A stretch of 64,000 bases of DNA from Actinomadura sp. J1-007 (GTDB lineage: Bacteria > Actinomycetota > Actinomycetes > Streptosporangiales > Streptosporangiaceae), in the NCBI RefSeq assembly GCF_009793335.1, contig NZ_WING01000001.1, positions 6,634,001-6,698,000 on the forward strand. Direction: 5' to 3'. The notes beneath the pieces were generated by a model. That model had not been told where the DNA came from. It did not search any database and saw only the letters and a program-made list of their open reading frames with translations. This document shows, one piece after another, positions 6,103 through 26,544 of the stretch. The translations under genes and the position numbers were made by a program. Every line of letters begins with the position of its first letter. Position 1 is the stretch's first letter.

Positions 6103-7769
6103 GTGGAGACGCGGGACATGCTGTGGAGCGGTTGGGGCGATCCCGCCAAGGCGTCGCCCCTCCCCGAACCGGTGGTCGGCCTGCTGCGCGACCTGCTCGG
6201 CGTCCGCCCTCCGACGCGAAGCCGCTCGCGCTGGACGATGTGGCCGTTCCCGCGCCGAAGCTGCCGGACGGCGTGCTCGCGGCCCTCGCAGACGCGGCGG
6301 GCGGCGACGCGCACGTCCGCACCGACGCCGAGACGCGCGTCCGCCACACGCGCGGGAGGTCCACGCCCGACCTGCTGCGCATCCGCGCGGGCGAGGCGTC
6401 CGACGCGCCCGACGCGGTCGTCCTGCCCGGCTCGCACGACGAGGTCCTCGCCGTCCTGCGCGTGTGCGCGGAACGGCGCGTCGCGGTCGTGCCGTTCGGC
6501 GGCGGGACGTCGGTCGTCGGCGGGCTCGCCCCGCGCGGAACGGACCGGTTCGCCGGGGTCGTCGCGCTCGACCTGCGGCGCATGGACGCGCTGGTCTCGG
6601 TCGACGAGGTCTCCCGCACGGCCGTGCTCCAGCCCGGCCTGCGCGGGCCGCGGGCCGAGGCGCTGCTGCGCGAGCGCGGCTACACGCTCGGGCACTTCCC
6701 GCAGTCGTACGAGTGGGCGTCGGTCGGCGGGTTCGCGGCGGCCCGCTCCAGCGGCCAGGCGTCCGCCGGGTACGGGCGGTTCGACGAGATGGTGCTCGGC
6801 CTCACTGTCGCCACGCCCGAGGGCCCGCTCGACCTCGGCCGCGCGCCCCGTTCCGCCGCCGGGCCCGACCTGCGGCAGCTCGTGCTGGGCTCCGAGGGCG
6901 CGTTCGGCGTGATCACCTCGGTGACCGTCCGGATCCACCCGGCGCCGGAGGCCGCCGCGTACGAGGGCTGGCGCTTCCCGTCGTTCGAGGCGGGCGCGGC
7001 AGCGCTGCGGCGCGTCGCGCAGGACGGGCCGATGCCCGTCGTGCTGCGGCTGTCGGACGAGACCGAGACCATGATCGGGCTGGCCGACCCGTCCGCCGTC
7101 GGCACCGGCGACGCGCCGGAGAACGGCGCGCCTCAGGGGGCGGGGCTCCCGCAGGGGGCGGGCTGCCTCGCCGTCCTCGGGTACGAGGGCGCGCCCGCCG
7201 CGATCGCCGAACGCCGCGAACGCCTCGCCGCGGTCCTGCGCGGCGCGGGCGGCGAGCCGCTCGGCGAGGGCCCCGGCGACGCGTGGGCGCACGGCCGGTT
7301 CAACGCCCCGTACCTGCGCGACGCGCTCCTCGACGTCGGCGCGTTCGCCGAGACGCTGGAGACCGCCGCGTTCTGGTCGGGCGTCCCCGCGCTGTACGCG
7401 GCGGTGCGCGAGGCGCTGATCGGCACGCTCGCGCGCGCCGGCACCCCGCCGCTCGTGATGTGCCACATCTCGCACGTGTATCCGGCCGGGGCGTCCCTCT
7501 ACTTCACCGTCGTGTCGGCGTCCGGGCCGTCCGGGCGGGAGGTCGGGCACTGGCGCGAGGCCAAGCGCGCCGCCAGCGACGCCATCCTCGGCGCCGGTGG
7601 CACGATCAGCCACCACCACGGCGTCGGCACCGACCACCGCGACTGGTACGCCCGCGAGATCGGCCCCCTCGGCGGCGCGGTCCTGCGCGCGGTCAAGGAA
7701 CGGCTCGACCCCTCCGGCGTCCTCAATCCCGGCGTCCTGGTCCCTCCGGCCGACGGCGCGCAGGAGTAG
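6103..7769 (+). CDS. FAD-binding oxidase, alkyldihydroxyacetonephosphate-synthase-like (frame broken)
   Basis: The vanillyl-alcohol-oxidase-type FAD domain is clear: VVPFGGGTSVVGGL is the FAD loop, GSEGAFGVITSVTVRIHP the second FAD segment, and GGTISHHHGVGTDH near the C-terminus is the signature of alkylglycerone-phosphate synthase. This enzyme class exchanges the acyl group of acyl-DHAP for an alkyl group. The N-terminus (GTG at 6103, SD GGGAGA; MLWSGWGDPAKA, PEPVVGLLRDLLG) is in one frame, and the rest, from about base 6215, is in the frame one base back. The total of 1667 bp is 3n+2, as expected for one missing base in the C-rich stretch at about 6212-6218. It is followed after five bases by the lipid-kinase-like gene. 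The neighbouring glpD produces DHAP, the precursor. Confidence 0.8.
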
Positions 7770-17719: not shown

Positions 17720-19111
17720 TCACCGCGCGGCCTCGCGTGTGCCGGTCCACAGACCGGCCGCCACGGCGGCGGCCGAGGCTAGAGTGCAGAAGAGGTAGAC
17801 AGTGGTGAAGTCATCGTGGGACGCCGCGTCCGGGAGCAGGGCGGCCAGAGCGGCGATCCCGAGCGCCCCGCCGAGCTGGCGGGCCGTCGTGTTGAGCCCG
17901 GTCGCCCCCGCGAAGCGCAGCGGGCTCACCGAGAGGGCGGCGGCACCGGCCGTCCCGGTGCTGAGCGCGCCCATCCCCACGCCGACCAGGAGCCCGACCG
18001 GCAGCCAGAACGTCAGGAAGCGCGGCTCCTCCGGGAGGCCCGCGCACGTCCAGAGACCGGCGGCGACCATGGTCAGAGCGCCGCCGACCACCGCCGGGCG
18101 GGCGCCGAGGCGTCCGGTGAGCCGGCCCATGGCGAGCGCCGCGGCGGTCGCGGTGAACGCGCCGGGCGTCGAGGCGAGGCCCGCCTTCAGCACCGAGTAG
18201 TGCCACCGCTCGGTCAGGAAGAGCACCCCGACCAGCAGCCACGAGTACAGCGCCGTCCCGTACAGGAAGGAGGCCGCGTTCGCGGCGGCGAAGCGCCGGT
18301 TGCGCCACAGGCCGATCTCCAGCGCGGGCACCGGGTGGCGCACCGACCGCAGGACCGCCCACGCCATCATCGCCGGACCCGCGGCGAGCAGCGCGAGCGT
18401 GCCGGGATCGGCCCAGCCCCATTCCCGGGTCTGGGTGACGCCCAGCGCGAGCGCCCCGACGCCGCCGCCCAGCAGGACCGTGCCCGCCAGGTCGGGCAGG
18501 CGCCCCCGCTCGCCGGCGGCCCGGGGCAGCCTGACTCCGGCCAGGAGCATCGCCGCGCCGAACGGGAGGTTGATGACGAACAGCGAGCGCCAGCCGAACG
18601 CGTCCACGAGGACGCCGCCGAGGCTCGGCCCGATCGCCGCCGCGAACGCCCCGGCGGCACTCCACAGCCCGACGGCGCCCGCGCGCCGTTCGGGAGCGGT
18701 GTCGTGCAGCAGCAGCGCGAGCGACGCCGGGATCATCGCGGCCGCCGCCGCGCCCTGGAGCCCCCGGGTGGCCAGCAGGACGGGCACGTTCGGCGCCAGC
18801 GCGCAGGCCAGCGACGCGAGCGTGAACACGCCCACCCCCGACTGGAACATCACCCGCCGCCCCACCAGGTCGGCGAGGCGCCCGGCCGGGGCGAGCAGCG
18901 CGGCGAACGGCACGGCGTACAGCGTGATCACCCACGTGAGGCCGGCGAGCGAGGTCCCGGGGAAGTCGGCGTGCAGGTCGGGCACGGCGAGGTTCGCGAC
19001 GGTGGCGTCGAGCATGGCCAGGAACGTCGCCCCCGCCGCGAGCACCGGCACCCCGCGCCTCCCCAGGCGGGCCGCGCCCGCCGGGGGAGCCGGGGCCGTA
19101 TCGGTGGTCAT
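17720..19111 (-). CDS. MFS transporter, DHA2 (EmrB/QacA) drug-exporter type
   Basis: A 463-residue transporter with about 14 hydrophobic segments. FLAMLDATVANLAVPDL at about 31-47 is the first-helix signature of the DHA2 family (D-x-T-V-x-N-x-A-x-P), GRLADLVGRRVMFQSGV the loop 2-3 motif, and RGLQGAAAAAMIPASLAL the helix-5 antiporter motif. It is divergent from a TetR gene and separated from it by two matching operator-like sites, the standard layout for a repressed drug-efflux gene. The exported compound is unknown. Confidence 0.9.
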   Translation of the reverse strand: MTTDTAPAPPAGAARLGRRGVPVLAAGATFLAMLDATVANLAVPDLHADFPGTSLAGLTWVITLYAVPFAALLAPAGRLADLVGRRVMFQSGVGVFTLASLACALAPNVPVLLATRGLQGAAAAAMIPASLALLLHDTAPERRAGAVGLWSAAGAFAAAIGPSLGGVLVDAFGWRSLFVINLPFGAAMLLAGVRLPRAAGERGRLPDLAGTVLLGGGVGALALGVTQTREWGWADPGTLALLAAGPAMMAWAVLRSVRHPVPALEIGLWRNRRFAAANAASFLYGTALYSWLLVGVLFLTERWHYSVLKAGLASTPGAFTATAAALAMGRLTGRLGARPAVVGGALTMVAAGLWTCAGLPEEPRFLTFWLPVGLLVGVGMGALSTGTAGAAALSVSPLRFAGATGLNTTARQLGGALGIAALAALLPDAASHDDFTTVYLFCTLASAAAVAAGLWTGTREAAR

Positions 19112-19136
19112 GAGCGCCCCTTCCGAAGAAAGTTAA

Positions 19137-19213
19137 ACGAACGGTCGTACTTTCTTCTCCGCCCACCACCCGCGTCAAGGGCTTTGCCCCCTTGACTTAG
19201 AACGAACGATCGT
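19137..19213. promoter_or_regulatory. Paired TetR operators between MFS and tetR
   Basis: ACGAACGGTCGT at 19137-19148 and ACGAACGATCGT at 19202-19213 differ by one base; the second contains the perfect palindrome ACGATCGT. One sits beside the MFS start. The other lies between TTGACT (19192-19197) and CACATT (19215-19220), a -35/-10 pair with 17-bp spacing for tetR, whose GTG follows seven bases later. Binding there would block both promoters. Confidence 0.7.
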
Positions 19214-19227
19214 GCACATTCACCCGT

Positions 19228-19839
19228 GTGACCGACGGACGGCTCCTCAAGGGAGAGCAGACGCGCAGGACGATCCTCGCCCGCGCCGCCGACATCGCCT
19301 CGGCGGAGGGCCTCGAAGGCGTCTCGATCGGCCGCCTCGCGACCGAGCTGAAGATCAGCAAGAGCGGCGTGTTCACGCACTTCGGCTCCAAGGAGGAGCT
19401 CCAACTCGCGACCGTGCGCGCCGCCGCCGAGACGTTCCGCCGGCACGTGGTCGAGCCCGCCCTCGCCGCGCCCGAGGGCATGCCCCGGGTCCGCGCGCTC
19501 TACGAGGCATGGCAGCGCTACCAGCGCGAACCCGTCTTCCCCGGCGGCTGCTTCTTCTACGCCACGGTCGCCGAGTTCGACGCCCGCCCCGGCCGCGTCC
19601 GCGACGCCATCGCCAAGGCCGAACGCGCCTGGAGCGACTTCACCGAGCGCTGCCTCCGCGAGGCCCGGGACCTGGGCCACCTCACACCGGAGACCGACGT
19701 CGCCCAACTGGCCTTCGAACTGCACGCCCTATGCCGCGCCGGCGGAGCCAACGCCCTCCTCCACGACGACAACGCCGCCTACGCCCGCTCCGCCCAAGCC
19801 ATCAGATCCCGCCTCTCCACCGCCACCCCCCACCCCTGA
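19228..19839 (+). CDS. TetR-family regulator of the MFS exporter
   Basis: A 203-residue repressor. The helix-turn-helix lies at about 25-50 (GVSIGRLATELKISKSGVFTHF). The C-terminal domain has PVFPGGCFFYATVAEFDARPG at about 110-130, a motif of one TetR subfamily linked with transporters. Divergent from the MFS gene with shared operators, it almost certainly represses both. A decayed copy of its codons 74-134 lies 4.7 kb away at 24212-24410. Its stop codon is the first base triplet of the 16-bp array that follows. Confidence 0.9.
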   Translation: MTDGRLLKGEQTRRTILARAADIASAEGLEGVSIGRLATELKISKSGVFTHFGSKEELQLATVRAAAETFRRHVVEPALAAPEGMPRVRALYEAWQRYQREPVFPGGCFFYATVAEFDARPGRVRDAIAKAERAWSDFTERCLREARDLGHLTPETDVAQLAFELHALCRAGGANALLHDDNAAYARSAQAIRSRLSTATPHP

Positions 19840-20517
19840 CCACCCCCACCTGTGACCCCCGCCCCTGACCGTCCTTATCCCTGACCGCCCCCACCTGTGA
19901 CCGCCCTCATCCCTGACCGCGCTCGTCCCTGACCACCTCCACCTGTGACCGCCCTCGCCCCTGACCACGGCCACCTTTGACCACGGCTATCTCTGATCAC
20001 GGTCGGCTCTGACCACCGCCACCATTGACCACGGCTATCTCTGACCACGGCCTCCTTTGACCGCCGCCACCATTGATCATGGCTATGTCTGACCAAGGTC
20101 GGCTCTGACCACGGCCATTCCTGAGTACGGCCATCCCCGACCACGGTCGGCTCGGGTCTCGGCCGGGGCCACGGTCGGCTTGGGTCTTGGTTGGTTCTGA
20201 GCGTGGTCACTTCGGGTTACGGCCGTTCTTGAGTAGGGCCATGCCTGACCGCGGTCGGCTGGGGCCACGGTCGGCTCGGGTCTTGGTTGGTCGTGAGCGT
20301 GGCTACTTCGGATCACGGTCATCCCTGAGTACGGCTAGGTCTGAGCGCGGTTGGCTTTGGCCACGGCCATCTCTGAGTACGGCTGGTCCTGAGCGCGGTT
20401 GGCTCTGGACATGGCCATCGCTGAGGATGGCTGGGGCTGAGCGCGGTTGGGCCTGGCTGCGGTTGGCTCTGGCTTTCGCCATTCCTGGGTACGGCTGGTC
20501 CGGGTCTCGGTGGGCGT
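19837..20517. repeat. 16-bp tandem minisatellite, about 42 units
   Basis: Starting at the tetR stop codon, nearly all of this 680-bp stretch divides into units of exactly 16 bases beginning TGA(C/G)(C/T), for example TGACCACGGCTATCTC, TGACCACGGCCATTCC and TGAGCGCGGTTGGCTC. A few boundaries are blurred into runs of 32 or 48 bases, and single units of 12 or 15 occur. The early part is C-rich, the later part G/T-rich, so the consensus drifts along the array. Because 16 is not a multiple of three, long open frames on the minus strand are repeat artefacts. GC content drops relative to flanking genes. Confidence 0.9.
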
Positions 20518-20669
20518 CGGCCGGTGTGATTCCTGGCCACCGCGAGCGCGTTCCTTGTCGCGACGAAGGCGTCTGCTCACCGCCGCGTGTGGGCTTCGAA
20601 ATGATCAAGCTCCGGTCATGGTTGGCCGCTGGCGGGGGAGAGGTGCTCGTGCCCGGAAACGCGCGGCCG

Positions 20670-20683
20670 TAGCGTTCCGGTCT
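20670..20683 (+). promoter_or_regulatory. Leaderless-type -10 box for the dehydrogenase gene
   Basis: TAGCGT at 20670-20675 lies eight bases before the GTG at 20684; no SD sequence is visible. It would start the exopolysaccharide-type operon directly at its first codon. Confidence 0.4.
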
Positions 20684-21550
20684 GTGGCGAACATCCTCAT
20701 CGTTGGGGCGGGTGTGGTGGGAACGGCCACCGGCCTTGGTTTCAGCCGGCACGACCACAAGATCGCGTTCATCGACGTCGACCCCTCGGCCCGCCGCCGT
20801 GCCGGTGAGCTCGGGTTCGTGGCGGCGGCGGCCGGCGCGGTCGATCTCACCGAGGCCGACGTGGTGTTCGTGGCGGTGCCCACGCCGACGGGCCGGCGGG
20901 GCTGCGATCTGTCGCGCCTGCGGGAGACGGCCCACGCTCTCGGGACGGCGCTGAAGCGGGTCACGCCGGACGCGTTCCCGGTGATCGTGTACCGGTGCAC
21001 CGCGCCGCCGGGGACGACGCGGGAGATGGCGGCGATCCTCCAGGCCGTCTCCGGCAGGCGGGCCGGCGCCGACTTCGGCGTGGCCTACAACCCCGAGTAC
21101 CTCAGGGCGCACAGGGCCGTCGAGGACTTCGCCACCCCGCCCGTGGTGACCATCGGCGTGGTCGACGGCGACCGCCGCGTGGCGGAGGTCCTTCGCTGCC
21201 TGTACCGCCCGTTCGGGGCTCGCATCGTGGTCACCGGGGTGGAGGAGGCGGAGTTCCAGAAGTACGTGCACAATCTCTTCAACGCGGTCAAGATCTCGTT
21301 CTTCAACGAGATGAGGGGCGCCGCCGCGCGTCTCGGGCTGCGCGATGTCGATGAGATCTTCGAGATCACGGCACGTTCGGCCGAAGGGATGCGCAACCCG
21401 TCGTACGGAATCGCCGACCTCGGCCCTTACGGCGGCGCGTGCCTGCCCAAGGACCTGGGGGCGTGGCTCGCCGAGATGCGGCGGCTGGGCGTCGAGACCC
21501 CCCTTGCGGCGGCGGCGCGCGAGGTGAACGTGCGCCTCGGAGGCCGTTGA
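20684..21550 (+). CDS. UDP-glucose/GDP-mannose dehydrogenase, short form without C-terminal domain
   Basis: A 288-residue NAD-dependent nucleotide-sugar dehydrogenase, expected to oxidise a sugar nucleotide to its uronic acid. The Rossmann motif ILIVGAGVVGTATGLGFS lies at the N-terminus, FVAVPTPTG and VAYNPEYLRAHRAVEDF follow, the helix EEAEFQKYVHNLFNAVKISF carries the conserved Lys, and YGGACLPKDLGAW holds the catalytic Cys. The protein stops just after the central helical domain. Family members are usually about 430 residues and have a third, nucleotide-binding domain that is missing here. Its TGA overlaps the ATG of the glycosyltransferase, so the two are coupled. Confidence 0.82.
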   Translation: MANILIVGAGVVGTATGLGFSRHDHKIAFIDVDPSARRRAGELGFVAAAAGAVDLTEADVVFVAVPTPTGRRGCDLSRLRETAHALGTALKRVTPDAFPVIVYRCTAPPGTTREMAAILQAVSGRRAGADFGVAYNPEYLRAHRAVEDFATPPVVTIGVVDGDRRVAEVLRCLYRPFGARIVVTGVEEAEFQKYVHNLFNAVKISFFNEMRGAAARLGLRDVDEIFEITARSAEGMRNPSYGIADLGPYGGACLPKDLGAWLAEMRRLGVETPLAAAAREVNVRLGGR

Positions 21551-22832
21551 TGGACGACCCTGGATGGGCGCAGTACCTCCAGTGGGCGTGCCTGCCGTTC
21601 TTCCTCGTCCCACTGGCCGAACTGCTGCTGATGGGCGTCGGCTACGTGCACGGCCGAATGGCCTACAGGGTCGCGGCGGATGAATTCCGTCATCTGATCA
21701 TCCAGATCACGACGGTGGGCAGGGAACCGGACCTGGTACGCCAGACCATCGCCGCCATTCGCGGATACGGACTCACCGGCTCCTATGAGATCTGGGTCGT
21801 TCTGGAACCGGGCCACGATGACCATTATCCCTTGGCCGACCGTGTCATCACGGTGCCCGAAGATTTCACCTGCAAGGCCATCGACAAGGCGAGGGCCCTG
21901 GAGTTCTCCCGGCTGGAGCGCGCCGCGCACGGGTTGAACTCCTATGACACCAAGATCTTGTTCGTCGATGACGATACTTTGCCGACCAAGGAGTACATCA
22001 CCAGCGCCTACGCCGGCGACTACGACCTCTGCCAAGGCGTGACGGTGGTGAACCGGCATTACGCCGCCCGTCCATGGAAACACTTCCTCCTCTCCCATCT
22101 GGACAATATCCGCACTCGCAACTGCCTGGTCTATTGCAGTTGCACGCAGGGGGTCACGGGCAAACCGCTGTTCGTGCACGGCGAAGGGCTGTGCGTCACC
22201 GGCCTGGTCGAGGACGTGATCACCTGGGACCATCCGATCGTCGCCTCGGACGACCTGGTCTTCGGTACCAAGGCGGCTTACGCCGGTTTCAGTTGGGGCT
22301 ACTTCCACGAACACATCCAGCTCGTGTCGCCGTGGACCTTCACCGATTCCTGGAGGCAGCGCAAACGCTGGACGTGGGGAAACTTCACGGCGATCCGGCG
22401 GCGCGACATCCTCCCGCTCTCGGTGGCGGTGCCCAAGGCCGCCAAGTACGCGCTGGGGTCGTATCGGTCTTCGCATCCGCCGCAGGGGCGATATGCGTCA
22501 CCACAGGCATTACCAAGGTTCCCGCGCAGGCTCACGTGCTGTTCTGGATTTCGTTGGGGTCCTGGTTCGCCTCTTACGGACTGATGGGCTGGATCAACTC
22601 CGGTGGCGACGCCAACAAGGAACGGTTCGGCGGACCGGGCGTCCGCTACATCGGTTTTCGTGCCGTTCAGACCGTGGCCGCCGTGCTGCTGTGCGTACCG
22701 ACGGCGATCCTCCCGGTCTTCATCGTCATCGGCAGTACGGTGACCGGAAAACCCCGGCGATTCGTCACCATCGCGAAGACGCGTCCCGGAGCCGTTCCTG
22801 ACGTTCCGGAAAGGCAGGTGCCATGCCCCTGA
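21550..22832 (+). CDS. Membrane family-2 glycosyltransferase, processive type (frame broken)
   Basis: A polysaccharide-synthase-like enzyme of about 427 residues. An N-terminal membrane helix is followed by a GT-A domain with ILFVDDDTLPTKE (DDD metal site), TWDHPIVASDDLVFGTKA (acceptor-site acid) and WRQRKRWTWGN, the Q-x-x-R-W motif of processive beta-glycosyltransferases. It resembles Egghead-type beta-mannosyltransferases more than cellulose synthases. After AKYALG the reading continues one base back: GVVSVFASAAGAI then membrane helices to 22832. One missing G in the GGGG at about 22455-22458 explains this, and the total length is 3n+2. GC is visibly lower than in neighbouring genes, suggesting transfer. 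The product polymer is unknown. Confidence 0.78.
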
Positions 22833-23140
22833 CGACGGATCCCGCGCAGCCGCGGGCGTGTGCCTGGCGCCGGTCTCTGGGTGGGATATTCACGCTCCTG
22901 GTTCTGCTGGCCTCAGCCGGGCTCGTGCTTTCACTGGGCATGGGCTGGGGACGGCCGAGGACGCCGACCGCGACCGGAGCCGCCGAAGCGGCCTTCCGTC
23001 TTCGCTGCCTGTGGACCGCGCTGGCGGTCTCGTTCGCCATCGGCTCGGTGGGCGTCCTCGCCGCCACCCATCGTCTCCGCCAGAACGTCAGGCGTTCCAG
23101 AGACACCGATCGCAGCGGCGACACCGACGAGCTGCCTTGA
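22823..23140 (+). CDS. Small membrane protein of the exopolysaccharide-type cassette
   Basis: A 105-residue protein with two hydrophobic segments (about 19-41, SLGGIFTLLVLLASAGLVLS; and about 63-82, LWTALAVSFAIGSVGVLAAT) and a charged Arg/Asp tail. It overlaps the end of the glycosyltransferase gene by ten bases and is 11 bases from the beta-helix gene. Nothing matches a known family by eye. Its position suggests an accessory role in polymer synthesis or export. Confidence 0.6.
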   Translation: MPLTTDPAQPRACAWRRSLGGIFTLLVLLASAGLVLSLGMGWGRPRTPTATGAAEAAFRLRCLWTALAVSFAIGSVGVLAATHRLRQNVRRSRDTDRSGDTDELP

Positions 23141-23151
23141 CGGAAGGTTCC

Positions 23152-24183
23152 ATGCACCGGCTGACGACCGCGGCCGCCACAGCCGCGACGGCCATCCTGG
23201 CGGTCACCGCGCCCCTCGACGCGGCGCACGCCGCGGCCCCGGAGGGGGAGTGCCCGGCCGAGACCGTCACGGTCCGGACCCCGGCGGAGCTTGGCGCGGC
23301 CCTCGCCGGAGCGCATGGCGGAACGGTGATCCACCTCGCCGACGGCGTCTACGACGGCGACTGGACCGCCACCACCGCAGGCACGCGCGCCGCGCCCATC
23401 TGGCTGTGCGGGGGGTCTCAAGCGATCCTGACCAACACCGGCCGCGGCACCGCCGGGGCTCCCGGCCGACGCCCCGGCTCGCAGCCGGGATACGGGCTGC
23501 ACCTGGACCGCGCGTCCTGGTGGCGCCTGCACGGATTCTCGGTGGCGCACGCCAAGAAGGGCATCGTGGTGGACGCCGCCGCACACGTCACCCTGCGGCG
23601 TCTGGAGATCCGCGACGTGGACGAGGAAGGCGTCCACCTGCGCCGCGACACCACGGACTCGATGATCGTCGGCAACCGGGTGCACGGCACGGGACGGACG
23701 CACGACGAGTGGGGCGAGGGCGTCTACATCGGCTCGGCCAACACCAACTGGCACCTCTACACCGGCGGACGGCCCGACCGCAGCGACAGGAACACCGTCT
23801 CCGGCAACGTGATCCACGGTACGACCGCCGAGCCCATCGACATCAAAGAAGGCACCACAGGGGGCCTGGTCACCGGCAACTGGCTGGACGCCGCCGCACT
23901 GACCAAGGCGGGCGGCGACAGTTGCGGCGACGTCAAGGGCGACGACTGGCTGATCGCCTACAACCTGTGCACCGGCAGCGGCGCCGACGGATGGCAGACC
24001 CACCGCAAGGAGGGCGGCGGCCAATGGGGCCGGCGCGCCTTTTTCTACCGCAATCTGGTCGCGCTCACCGCGTCGTCCACTGGCTACGGCTTCCGAATCG
24101 ACGATCCCGCACACTCCAGCGCCATCGTCCACTGCGACAACCTCGTACTCGGCGCCTTCTCCAACGTTCCGTGCACCCCATAG
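23152..24183 (+). CDS. Secreted right-handed parallel beta-helix protein
   Basis: A 343-residue secreted protein. The signal peptide is MHRLTTAAATAATAILAVTA, with a cut near AHA-AAP. The body reads like a pectate-lyase-type beta-helix: repeated short strands such as GFSVAHAKKGIVV, VTLRRLEIRDVDEEGVHL, DSMIVGNRVHGTG, NTVSGNVIHGT, GGLVTGNWLDA. An N-terminal VRTPAELGAALAGAHGGTVIHLADGVYDG is the usual cap of polysaccharide lyases and chondroitinase-B-like folds. Cys residues are in positions that could pair. It could be a lyase or a C5-epimerase acting on a uronic-acid polymer made by the two upstream genes; the specificity is not visible. Confidence 0.72.
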   Translation: MHRLTTAAATAATAILAVTAPLDAAHAAAPEGECPAETVTVRTPAELGAALAGAHGGTVIHLADGVYDGDWTATTAGTRAAPIWLCGGSQAILTNTGRGTAGAPGRRPGSQPGYGLHLDRASWWRLHGFSVAHAKKGIVVDAAAHVTLRRLEIRDVDEEGVHLRRDTTDSMIVGNRVHGTGRTHDEWGEGVYIGSANTNWHLYTGGRPDRSDRNTVSGNVIHGTTAEPIDIKEGTTGGLVTGNWLDAAALTKAGGDSCGDVKGDDWLIAYNLCTGSGADGWQTHRKEGGGQWGRRAFFYRNLVALTASSTGYGFRIDDPAHSSAIVHCDNLVLGAFSNVPCTP

Positions 24184-24211: not shown

Positions 24212-24410
24212 GTGGTCGAGCTCGCCCTCGCCGCGGCCGAAGGCATGCCCAGCGTCCGTACGTCCTACCGGGCATGACGGCGCTACCAGCACGAACCCGC
24301 CTTCCTCGGCGGCTGCTCCATCAATGCCACGTTCGCCGAGTTCGACACCCGCCCGGCCGCGTCCGCGACGCCGTCGCCGTTGCCGTCGCCATCGCCAAGA
24401 CCGAACGCGC
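24212..24410 (+). pseudogene. Decayed fragment of the tetR gene
   Basis: This stretch aligns by eye with bases 19447-19628 inside the intact tetR. The readable remnant VVELALAAAEGMPSV, then an in-frame stop, then YQHEPAFLGGC and ATFAEFDTRP parallels VVEPALAAPEGMPRV, YQREPVFPGGC and ATVAEFDARP. An extra block of about 17 bases, made of a repeated gccgtc-type motif, interrupts the end. It begins 28 bases after the beta-helix stop and runs into the 27/28-bp array. It marks the far side of the exopolysaccharide-type cassette with the same gene that marks the near side. Confidence 0.8.
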
Positions 24411-24529
24411 GGAACGGCCGGGCGGCGCGGACGCGCCAGGCCAGGCTGACGCGCCAGGCCGCGTCCCCGCTCGCCCAGCCCACACCGCCCCGCGCTCTGC
24501 CGCATCGTTCCCCCGGACCGCGCCCCGCC

Positions 24530-24900
24530 GCGCCGTCCCCCCGAACCGTGCTGTGTCGCGTCGTCCCCTCCGGACGGTGCTGTGCCGCGTCGTCCCCCGG
24601 ACGGTGCTGCGTCGTGCCGTCCCTCCGGACGGTGCTGGGTCGCGCCGTTCCTCCGGACGGTGCTGTGTCGCGCCGTCCCCCGGACGGTGCTGTGTCGCGC
24701 CGTTCCTCCGGACGGTGCTGTGTCGCGCCGTCCCCCGGACCGTGCTGTGTCGCGCCGTCCCCTCCGGACCGTGCTGGGTCGCGCTGTCCCCCGGGCCGCG
24801 CCCCGCCGCGCCGCCCCCCGGAACGTGCTGCGTCGCGCCGTGGTGCGCCACGGCCCGCCGCGCTGTCCCTCCGGGCTGTGCTGTGTCGCGCCGCGCTGCG
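24530..24900. repeat. 27/28-bp tandem array (intergenic)
   Basis: About a dozen copies of a unit close to GGACGGTGCTGTGTCGCGCC plus CGTCCCCC or CGTTCCTCC follow head to tail; the best copies lie at about 24595-24770. From 24411 to 25327 there is otherwise no gene I can support: the flanks are C/G-rich low-complexity sequence that keeps several frames open on both strands, so the long ORFs running through it in both directions are artefacts. Confidence 0.8.
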
Positions 24901-25327
24901 CAACGGCCCGCCGTCTCGCCCCGTCCCGCGACCCGTACCGCCCCGCCCCCGGACCGCGCCCGTCCCGGGCCGTGCTGCGTCGCCTCGGTCCGTCCCTGTG
25001 CCCGCCCTCGCGTCTGCGCTCCGCCCCGCCACCCCGTACCCCCGCCGCGCCGTCTCGCGCTGCGATGCGGTGCGTCGTGTTGGGCTGTGAGGCGTTACGT
25101 CGTCGTTTGTGGGTCCTCGCGGGTCGGCTCGTCGGCGTTGTGTTGCTGGCTTTGCTTGTTCGCTCCGTGCCGTTCTCGCGTTCTCCGCCGGGTCTTGCGC
25201 GTCCCCTGCCGCCTTGGGCTCCGCGTGGTGCGACGTGAGCCGCTGCGTGCCTTTCGACCGTGCCGGGGTGCAGGCAGGGTCCCGTATCGGAACGGGTTGT
25301 TCAGAGGGGGGCCGGCTGTTCTGTGGT

Positions 25328-26544
25328 TCAGGGCGAGTTGCGGGGGCCGGGTCGGGGGTGTTGGAGGAGGTTCGGCGGTAGGCGGTGGTGATGGTGTCGA
25401 GCTCTTCGGGGGTGAGGACGTCCTCGATGGCGGTGAAGCCGTTCGGGGCGCGTTCGGCGACGGTGTGCAGGATGCGGTCGGCGGGCATGTCGCGGCAGGC
25501 CAGGACGATCGCGTTGGCCTCGTCGCGGCGGGCGGCGTCGTAGGCGGCCAGGGCGGTGGGGACGTCGGGGGAGCGGGCCAGTTCACGGGCTAGGGCCCGG
25601 GCGTCCAGTACGGCCTGGGTGCCGCCGTTCGAGCCGACCGGGTACATCGGGTGGGCCGCGTCGCCGAGGAGGGTGACGCGGTGGCGCGTCCAGAACGGCA
25701 GGGGGTCGCGGTCGACCATCGGGTATTCGAGGATGCGGGCCGTGCGGGACAGGAGCGCGGGGACGTCCAGCCAGGGGAACGTCCAGTCGGCGTAGTGGGG
25801 GAGGACGTCCTCCAGCCGGCCGGTGCGGTCCCAGTCGGCGCGGAGGTCGGCGGCGGGGGTGCGGACCTCGGCGACCCAGTTGGTGAGGCCGCCGCCGACG
25901 GGGTAGACGACGATCTTCGCGGCGGTGTTGCTGCCCGCGACGGCCAGCGTCCGGCCGGTGAGGAACGGCTCGGCCTCGGTGACGCCGCGCCACATGCGGA
26001 TCCCGTTCCACAGGGGCGGCGGCTCGTGCGGGTGCAGGCGCGCGCGGACGCGGGAGTGCAGGCCGTCGGCGCCGACCAGCGCGTCGGCCTCGTAGGCGGT
26101 GGCGGCGCCGGACGCGCGGTCGCGGAGTACGGCGCGGACGTGCGTCCCCCGGTCGGTGAAGTCCTCGCACGCGGTGCCGGTGCGGACGGCCGCGTCGCCG
26201 AGGCGGGCCCGGACCGCGCGGAGCAGGATGGACTGGAGCTCGCCGCGGTGGATCGAGTACTGCGGCCAGGCGTGGCCGAGGGCCCTGCCCCGCGGCTCGG
26301 CCCAGATCCGTCCGCCGTGCCGGTCGAAGTGCACCATCTCGGCGGTCTCGACGCCGGTCGCGGCGAGGTCGGCGCCGAGGCCGAGCTCGGTGAGCTCGCG
26401 GGTCGCCTGCGGCAGGAGGTTGATGCCGACGCCGAGCGGGCGCAGGGCGGACGCGTCGACGACCTGCGCCCGGACGCCCGCGGCGTGCAGGCTGAGCGCG
26501 GCGGTGAGGCCGCCGATGCCCGCTCCCACGATCAGTACGCGCAT
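25328..26544 (-). CDS. FAD-dependent monooxygenase (frame probably broken near its end)
   Basis: A flavoprotein monooxygenase of the p-hydroxybenzoate-hydroxylase fold. The FAD motif MRVLIVGAGIGGLTAALSL opens the protein, DALVGADGLHSRVRARL is the DG motif, and VTLLGDAAHPMYPVGSNGGT the GD/FAD ribityl motif. As written, the frame passes the normal family end and continues about 350 residues to 24283 through the tandem array and the tetR fragment. One missing base near 25331-25400 would instead end it at TGA 25328-25330 with 405 residues, the usual length, and 1217 bp is 3n+2. SD GAGGAGG precedes the ATG. It is the last gene of the decarboxylase/transport operon and may hydroxylate the imported substrate or its product. 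Confidence 0.8.

Follow-up and report, generated by a model that had tools for sequence, protein, structure and literature searches.

A putative minimal alginate-type exopolysaccharide cassette with its own glycosyltransferase family in Actinomadura sp. J1-007

We analysed a stretch of 64,000 nucleotides from Actinomadura sp. J1-007 (contig NZ_WING01000001.1; the whole stretch is called the window below), which carries four plus-strand genes at positions 20684-24183. They encode a dehydrogenase, a membrane glycosyltransferase of family 2 (GT2), a two-helix membrane protein and a secreted beta-helix protein. We put the probability at about 0.65 that this cassette is a minimal locus for a mannuronan (alginate-type) exopolysaccharide, horizontally acquired and equipped with a GT2 family of its own; the polymer is predicted from the gene content. 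The source genome comprises 10.3 Mb on 3 contigs and belongs to the same genus as Actinomadura rubrisoli.

We infer the donor sugar, the identity of the polymer and the role of the two-helix protein in the following scheme. The short dehydrogenase would oxidise GDP-mannose to GDP-mannuronate, which the GT2 would polymerise into beta-1,4-mannuronan and pass through the membrane. The two-helix protein may assist the GT2 in this passage, and the secreted lyase, of polysaccharide lyase family 31 (PL31) type, would trim or release the polymer outside the cell. Elsewhere in actinobacteria the same dehydrogenase–GT2 pair would work with other accessories, namely an AlgG-like protein, an acyltransferase and a lyase of family PL7. 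A sequence-only reading, made without database searches, had drawn attention to the cassette. Its observations were confirmed in part and its interpretation found support; it had missed a break in the GT2 frame, the shortness of the dehydrogenase and a partial copy of a TetR gene at the edge of the cassette.

The four genes and their products

The genes of the cassette are arranged as follows.

20684-21550, plus strand: short dehydrogenase of the GDP-mannose/UDP-glucose type, 288 amino acids, without the C-terminal nucleotide-binding domain (PF03721, PF00984)
21550-22832, plus strand: membrane GT2 glycosyltransferase with a broken frame, proposed mannuronan synthase (PF13632)
22823-23140, plus strand: protein of 105 amino acids with two hydrophobic helices (hydropathy; homologues at the same place in relatives)
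23152-24183, plus strand: secreted right-handed beta-helix protein, homologue of PL31-type polymannuronate lyases (PDB 6kfn)

Dehydrogenase and GT2 genes overlap by one base (stop at 21548-21550, start at 21550), the GT2 and two-helix genes overlap at 22823-22832, and 11 bp separate the two-helix gene from the beta-helix gene. The coupling of four same-strand genes that the sequence-only reading had claimed is thus borne out by the coordinates, and the identities that it gave to the products agree with Pfam families and hydropathy. The lower GC content that it had noticed is also real: the cassette has 68.3% GC and the whole window 74.1%, and all of the sliding 3.5-kb segments that are equally GC-low (16 of 605, starting at 18901-20901) overlap the cassette.

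By its domains, the first product is a member of the UDP-glucose/GDP-mannose dehydrogenase superfamily. Both the N-terminal domain (PF03721, 1.4e-25) and the central domain (PF00984, 2.2e-17) were found by Pfam, and the residues T106, E138, K193, N197, C253 and D257, which we take to be the catalytic ones, are invariant in all six short dehydrogenases that were aligned. The C-terminal domain PF03720 was found by Pfam in none of the 16 short dehydrogenases encoded beside this GT2, that of the window included, at E-value limits of 1, 0.05, 0.001 and 10. Elsewhere in the genome PF03720 was matched four times, always within a frame of 448-489 amino acids, so no detached C-terminal domain was found.

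When a profile of six short dehydrogenases was compared with the PDB, the GDP-mannose dehydrogenase AlgD came first (1mfz, 3.8e-55). UDP-glucose dehydrogenases (UGDH) ranked after it (best 1.3e-51, others weaker), and the match ended before the C-terminal part of the AlgD and UGDH structures. When a tree was built from the region common to both kinds, 12 short and 4 full-length dehydrogenases separated at 100/100 support; this tree holds 12 of the 16 short forms (L074, L076, L077 and L078 were excluded), three of them as long branches, and a small full-length set in which two of the four full-length forms of the window genome (L024, L025) were missed by the motif used. A structure prediction for the dehydrogenase was not taken further (mean predicted local distance difference test score, pLDDT, 58; predicted template modelling score, pTM, 0.63).

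The GDP-mannose dehydrogenase (GMD) of Ectocarpus reportedly has no C-terminal domain either. Brown algae possess functional short GMDs; they are 315-320 amino acids long, with an incomplete Rossmann fold, a spacing of 245 from GxGxVG to GGxCLPKDV, and the residues Val17 and Pro257 (PMC4782291). The window enzyme reads GAGVVG at 8-13 and GGACLPKDL at 250-258, a spacing of 242, as compared with 254 in the full-length enzyme of its own genome. The Val of its GAGVVG stands at the place of the algal Val17 and its Pro248 at that of Pro257. These are two of the four named algal substitutions; the other two, Ala146/Val147, could not be placed with certainty. Among the 16 short dehydrogenases, Val is present in all 15 with a readable motif and Pro in 13 (absent in L019, L020 and L079). 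Measured against these published features, the short dehydrogenase resembles brown-algal GMD in length and motifs.

The second product was assigned to Glyco_trans_2_3 (PF13632, 1.1e-19). Its DDD, S(D/E)D and QxxRW motifs, the last already recognised by the sequence-only reading, are invariant in the GT2 of all six aligned relatives. Neither a solved relative nor a hyaluronan synthase was among the PDB matches of its first 303 amino acids. No NCBIfam model matched the GT2 beyond noise, and the general PF13632 was its sole family match; the Alg8 sequence itself was not part of this comparison. A profile comparison of the GT2 family with a hyaluronan-synthase-like GT2 from the same genome gave no relationship (probability 2.5). 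We presume a likeness to egghead-type beta-mannosyltransferases, a point in favour of the mannan or mannosyl glycan reading considered below. Structure prediction with four GT2 sequences gave a mean pLDDT of 38 and a pTM of 0.24, and was discarded.

The two-helix protein has homologues at the same place in A. rubrisoli and Nonomuraea antri. In the fourth product, Pfam detected a right-handed beta-helix domain (3.1e-6), and the sole strong PDB match was 6kfn (1.1e-31), the alginate lyase PsAly of Paenibacillus FPU-7, which we take to be an enzyme of PL31 type. PsAly has seven completely conserved active-site residues, of which Tyr184 and Lys221 are the predicted catalysts, and prefers polymannuronate (PMC6796002). 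As read from the PDB alignment, with an offset of 34 between the chain and the published numbering, the window protein keeps all seven (Lys128, His154, Arg156, Tyr184, Lys221, Asp250 and Lys252 in PsAly numbering) as well as Glu181, Glu216 and Asp219 of the first cation site; Tyr244 of the second site falls in an alignment gap. The protein is a recognisable alginate-lyase homologue of PL31 type, with predicted lyase activity.

Neighbouring genes and the predicted polymer

We examined 17 distinct loci with this GT2. In 16 of them the short dehydrogenase is its neighbour, and 15 have a PL31, PL7 or AlgG-like gene in the cluster. The gene is of PL31 type in the window, A. rubrisoli and N. antri, and of PL7 instead in N. 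rhizosphaerae. Farther relatives with this GT2 are the genomes G305, G536 and G510, to which come ten from f92, a different family within the class. In all ten f92 genomes the short dehydrogenase gene lies directly before the GT2 gene and one for an AlgG-like beta-helix protein after it; the gene right after the GT2 is also the best match to the AlgG model in each of these genomes. The cluster of G510 has an AlgG-like gene as well. One f92 protein (L071) matched poly(beta-D-mannuronate) C5 epimerase in the PDB (4nk6, 2e-23) and the NCBIfam AlgG model (6e-28). At this locus (L071:10995-14847) the AlgG-like protein has hydrophobic helices at both ends. An acyltransferase-SGNH gene, its domains determined for two f92 loci, comes next after the AlgG-like gene in nine of the ten; in the tenth (L079) the contig ends first. 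Perhaps the products of these two genes epimerise or bind the polymer and O-acylate it.

A PL7 alginate lyase gene lies on the other side of the pair in three f92 loci (L071, L078 and L079). When 14 genomes were scanned for PL7, five had a match, one gene each, and in four of these (the three of f92 and N. rhizosphaerae) the gene is less than 1 kb from the pair. A crude binomial estimate for this placement (10-kb target in 9 Mb) is 8e-12, a figure that treats as independent three cases from one genus and a fourth from a 63%-complete assembly, that of N. rhizosphaerae. Because the dehydrogenase profile fits AlgD best and the neighbouring families act on polymannuronate or alginate, the dehydrogenase and the GT2 both plausibly use GDP-mannose/GDP-mannuronate, which agrees with the related donors that the sequence-only reading presupposed for them. 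That reading had also seen in the cassette the logic of alginate or hyaluronan systems with sequences unlike both. The results favour alginate and not hyaluronan, and the unlikeness holds mainly for the GT2; it does not hold for the beta-helix protein, an alginate-lyase homologue, or for the AlgD-like short dehydrogenase.

Could the pair make a different uronic-acid polymer, such as a glucuronan or a hyaluronan-like copolymer containing glucuronic acid, on which the lyase-like proteins act? The scores of UGDH chains come close to that of AlgD, the specificity of beta-helix lyases is variable, and the same genome holds a second locus (C1:2894251-2903781; L026:3251-12781) that joins a hyaluronan-synthase-like GT2 (8smm, 4.4e-24), a full-length UDP-glucose/GDP-mannose dehydrogenase, two NosD-type beta-helix proteins and two PL31-like proteins, the first of which matched 6kfn at 9.8e-48. 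A similar order recurs in two of ten neighbourhoods of PL31-like genes (G201 and G025, of other genera), each with one PL31-like gene. This second locus brings dehydrogenase, GT2 and PL31-like protein together separately from the cassette. Three alginate-active families (PL31, PL7 and AlgG-like) adjoin the pair in different lineages, which speaks against another uronic-acid polymer, as does the lack of a hyaluronan synthase among the PDB matches of the window GT2, and we consider such a product rather improbable.

The locus of G305 (L018:4621-13904) suggests yet another product. Its GT2 gene is clustered with a GH113 gene, two GH26 genes, another GT2 gene and a PMT-type gene, an arrangement that possibly fits a neutral beta-mannan variant. 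If this held for the family, the product of the pair would be a beta-mannan, or a mannosyl glycan that is not a polymer; the dehydrogenase would be otherwise employed and the lyases would scavenge alginate. Such a division of labour is difficult to reconcile with a dehydrogenase that is adjacent in 16 of 17 loci and keeps its catalytic residues in the six aligned, or with a single-copy PL7 gene that sits at the pair, and not elsewhere, in four of five genomes. We regard it as very unlikely.

Several findings weigh against the preferred assignment to mannuronan itself. The preference of the dehydrogenase profile for AlgD over UGDH is slight (3.8e-55 versus 1.3e-51). For the GT2 family the search brought up no relative of solved structure, its fold could not be predicted and its profile did not align to the hyaluronan-synthase-like GT2. 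Enzymes of PL7 and PL31 serve in scavenging as well; 7 of the 10 neighbourhoods around PL31-like genes of the family hold none of the other query genes, and one f92 genome (G796) has its sole PL7 gene on another contig. G536 has the pair and no alginate-active neighbour on its 13.7-kb contig, and in G305 the GT2 gene has no dehydrogenase gene in 20 of 25 kb and lies beside genes of mannanase type (GH26/GH113). Lastly, the AlgG-like proteins read YG[VI]DPH[S/T] and not DPHD in 11 of 11 cases (one residue unread in one), and they score about 77-108 bits at an NCBIfam cut-off of 700. Since DPHS or DPHT replaces DPHD and the AlgG scores are far below the cut-off, epimerase activity of these proteins is doubtful.

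Insertion site and integrity of the cassette

The following features flank the cassette.

19228-19839, plus strand: TetR-type regulator to the left of the insertion site, outside the cassette
19827-20515, no strand: tandem array of 16/48-bp units, between TetR and cassette
24212-24378, plus strand: decayed partial TetR copy, right edge of the insertion (nucleotide identity)
24506-24913, no strand: tandem array of 27/28-bp units
25294-26544, minus strand: monooxygenase-like gene, right flank (named from a look at the sequence, no family search)

The stretch to the left of the cassette, from a major facilitator superfamily (MFS) gene to TetR, matches DNA in 34 of 65 genomes of the genus, partly only in some. 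In all seven genus-mates whose sequences were fetched, TetR is directly followed by the monooxygenase-like gene, with a gap of roughly 13-520 bp between the alignment ends. Because the flanking genes adjoin in these seven, the cassette was most likely inserted between TetR and the monooxygenase-like gene. A. rubrisoli has the empty site on one contig and the cassette on another. The empty sites and this other location support the transfer that the sequence-only reading had suspected. The GT2 of A. rubrisoli had no match in a plasmid collection. At the right edge, 143 bp at 24212-24354 repeat part of the TetR gene at 85% identity; over 24212-24378, the partial TetR copy is 85.7% identical to the window's own TetR and 75-79% identical to the TetR of the seven genus-mates; being closest to the former, it indicates that the insertion brought or made a duplication.

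The tandem arrays that had been reported at the flanks are present. The left one consists of degenerate 16-bp units and begins inside the end of the TetR gene. Comparable arrays were found neither around the cassette of A. rubrisoli nor at one empty site (L057), and we set the arrays aside as a part of the system.

The four-gene order recurs elsewhere, as is to be expected of a genuine cassette. A. rubrisoli has all four genes, in order and intact. The order is also kept in N. antri, where the dehydrogenase is without 38 residues of the NAD-binding region. In N. rhizosphaerae the first three genes are kept, with a match of just 45 residues for the third; the dehydrogenase is broken in its N-terminal part, and a broken PL7 alginate lyase gene on the opposite strand replaces the beta-helix gene.

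In the window, the reading frame of the GT2 breaks near 22455-22465. The same stretch is open in three close relatives (A. rubrisoli, N. antri and N. rhizosphaerae), where the product has about 420 amino acids. The window frame looks recently or artificially broken. A sequencing error is probably the cause, since 3 of 11 reading frames of the relative L055 that match the window are likewise split there (near 6210, 27940 and 29460). These frames are whole in L055, and the assembly of the window seems prone to small indels. Programmed frameshifting was set aside, as the gene reads through in the three relatives and further conserved genes are split in this assembly.

A decaying remnant, acquired and now functionless in this organism, would account for the GT2 frameshift and for the lesions in two other close copies; three of the four close copies carry a lesion (GT2 in the window, dehydrogenase in N. 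antri, dehydrogenase and PL7 in N. rhizosphaerae). It would also suit the weaker constraint on two window genes: against A. rubrisoli, nonsynonymous (dN) and synonymous (dS) divergence are 0.26 and 0.54 for the dehydrogenase and 0.26 and 0.45 for the beta-helix gene. The lesions and these values have to be set, with the points gathered above, against a working mannuronan cassette. The distribution is sporadic too. This GT2 was found in 2 of 297 genomes of the order, 5 of 341 of the family, 3 of 396 of the phylum and 11 of 394 of the class, in overlapping sets searched at differing thresholds, each of which includes the window's own genome. The two halves of the window GT2, however, have dN/dS pairs of 0.085/0.68 and 0.19/1.18 against A. 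rubrisoli, and dN is well below dS in both halves against all three relatives. With the intact copy of A. rubrisoli and the likelihood of a sequencing error, this makes a remnant unlikely.

Comparison with known systems

In the literature examined, which was seen mostly as titles and abstract openings, no actinobacterial locus for alginate synthesis was recognised among the matches listed. Alginate producers are reported from Pseudomonas and Azotobacter, two bacterial genera (PMC3815931), and from brown algae with their sister taxon (PMC3815931, PMC11468063). A survey of synthase-dependent operons found those for alginate mostly in Pseudomonas; environmental bacteria had atypical ones (PMC7112194). 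Single actinobacterial relatives of these enzymes have already been noticed in published trees; a 2024 paper states that actinomycetes are not known to possess such a pathway. We judge the locus to be real and acquired, and it is best read as minimal and of alginate type; within the extent of these sources, its kind has not been described before.

Class I hyaluronan synthase systems likewise combine a dehydrogenase (UGDH) with a membrane GT2. Unlike them, the cassette has a short dehydrogenase, accessories of alginate type and a GT2 without a PDB match to hyaluronan synthase. PsAly shares with the window protein the beta-helix, the seven active-site residues and the first cation site (PMC6796002); unlike PsAly, the window homologue is encoded beside biosynthetic genes.

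The pathway of brown algae consists of a GMD, a GT2 proposed as mannuronan synthase and not validated, the C5-epimerases ManC5-E and PL41 lyases; its published descriptions show a similar short GMD, with like spacing and the Val and Pro residues. Both catalytic residues of PsAly, Tyr and Lys, are retained in the Saccharina lyase SjAly (PMC6796002). The GT2s of brown algae reportedly do not resemble Alg8 (PMC11468063), and the algal epimerases keep DPHD, unlike the actinobacterial AlgG-like proteins. One proposal derives the alginate-specific steps of brown algae from an actinobacterium (PMC8307928). An actinobacterial origin has been called not strongly supported for GMD; the closest protein to the brown-algal enzyme comes from Woesebacteria (40%), and an actinobacterial cluster stands at about 30% (PMC11468063).

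It is conceivable, if doubtful, that Actinobacteria own an alginate pathway in which this GT2 represents the missing type of mannuronan synthase, joined to a GDP-mannose dehydrogenase of the short, brown-algal type. The loci would then be related to the donor of the algal genes, and the GT2 family would identify the algal synthase. A short, brown-alga-like dehydrogenase with a defined GT2 partner offers concrete genes with which to test the debated origin of seaweed alginate. Biotechnology might also profit from an alginate synthase that needs two to four genes and no Gram-negative envelope machinery.

With the alginate operon of Pseudomonas and Azotobacter (algD-alg8-alg44-...-algG-algL), the cassette shares the clustering of a dehydrogenase, a membrane GT2, a beta-helix enzyme and a lyase. 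Its dehydrogenase profile is nearest to AlgD, and the f92 clusters hold an AlgG-like gene. It differs in that the dehydrogenase is without the C-terminal domain of full-length AlgD and in that no PilZ/Alg44 match was found by Pfam among the cassette proteins scanned. The cassette and its relatives carry PL31 or PL7 in place of the PL5 lyase AlgL, and AlgG with its DPHD motif is absent from the window cassette, the AlgG-like proteins of 11 relatives having DPHS or DPHT. Read from its genes, the cassette would, in our best interpretation, work like an alginate system; it is not a member of the Pseudomonas/Azotobacter operon type.

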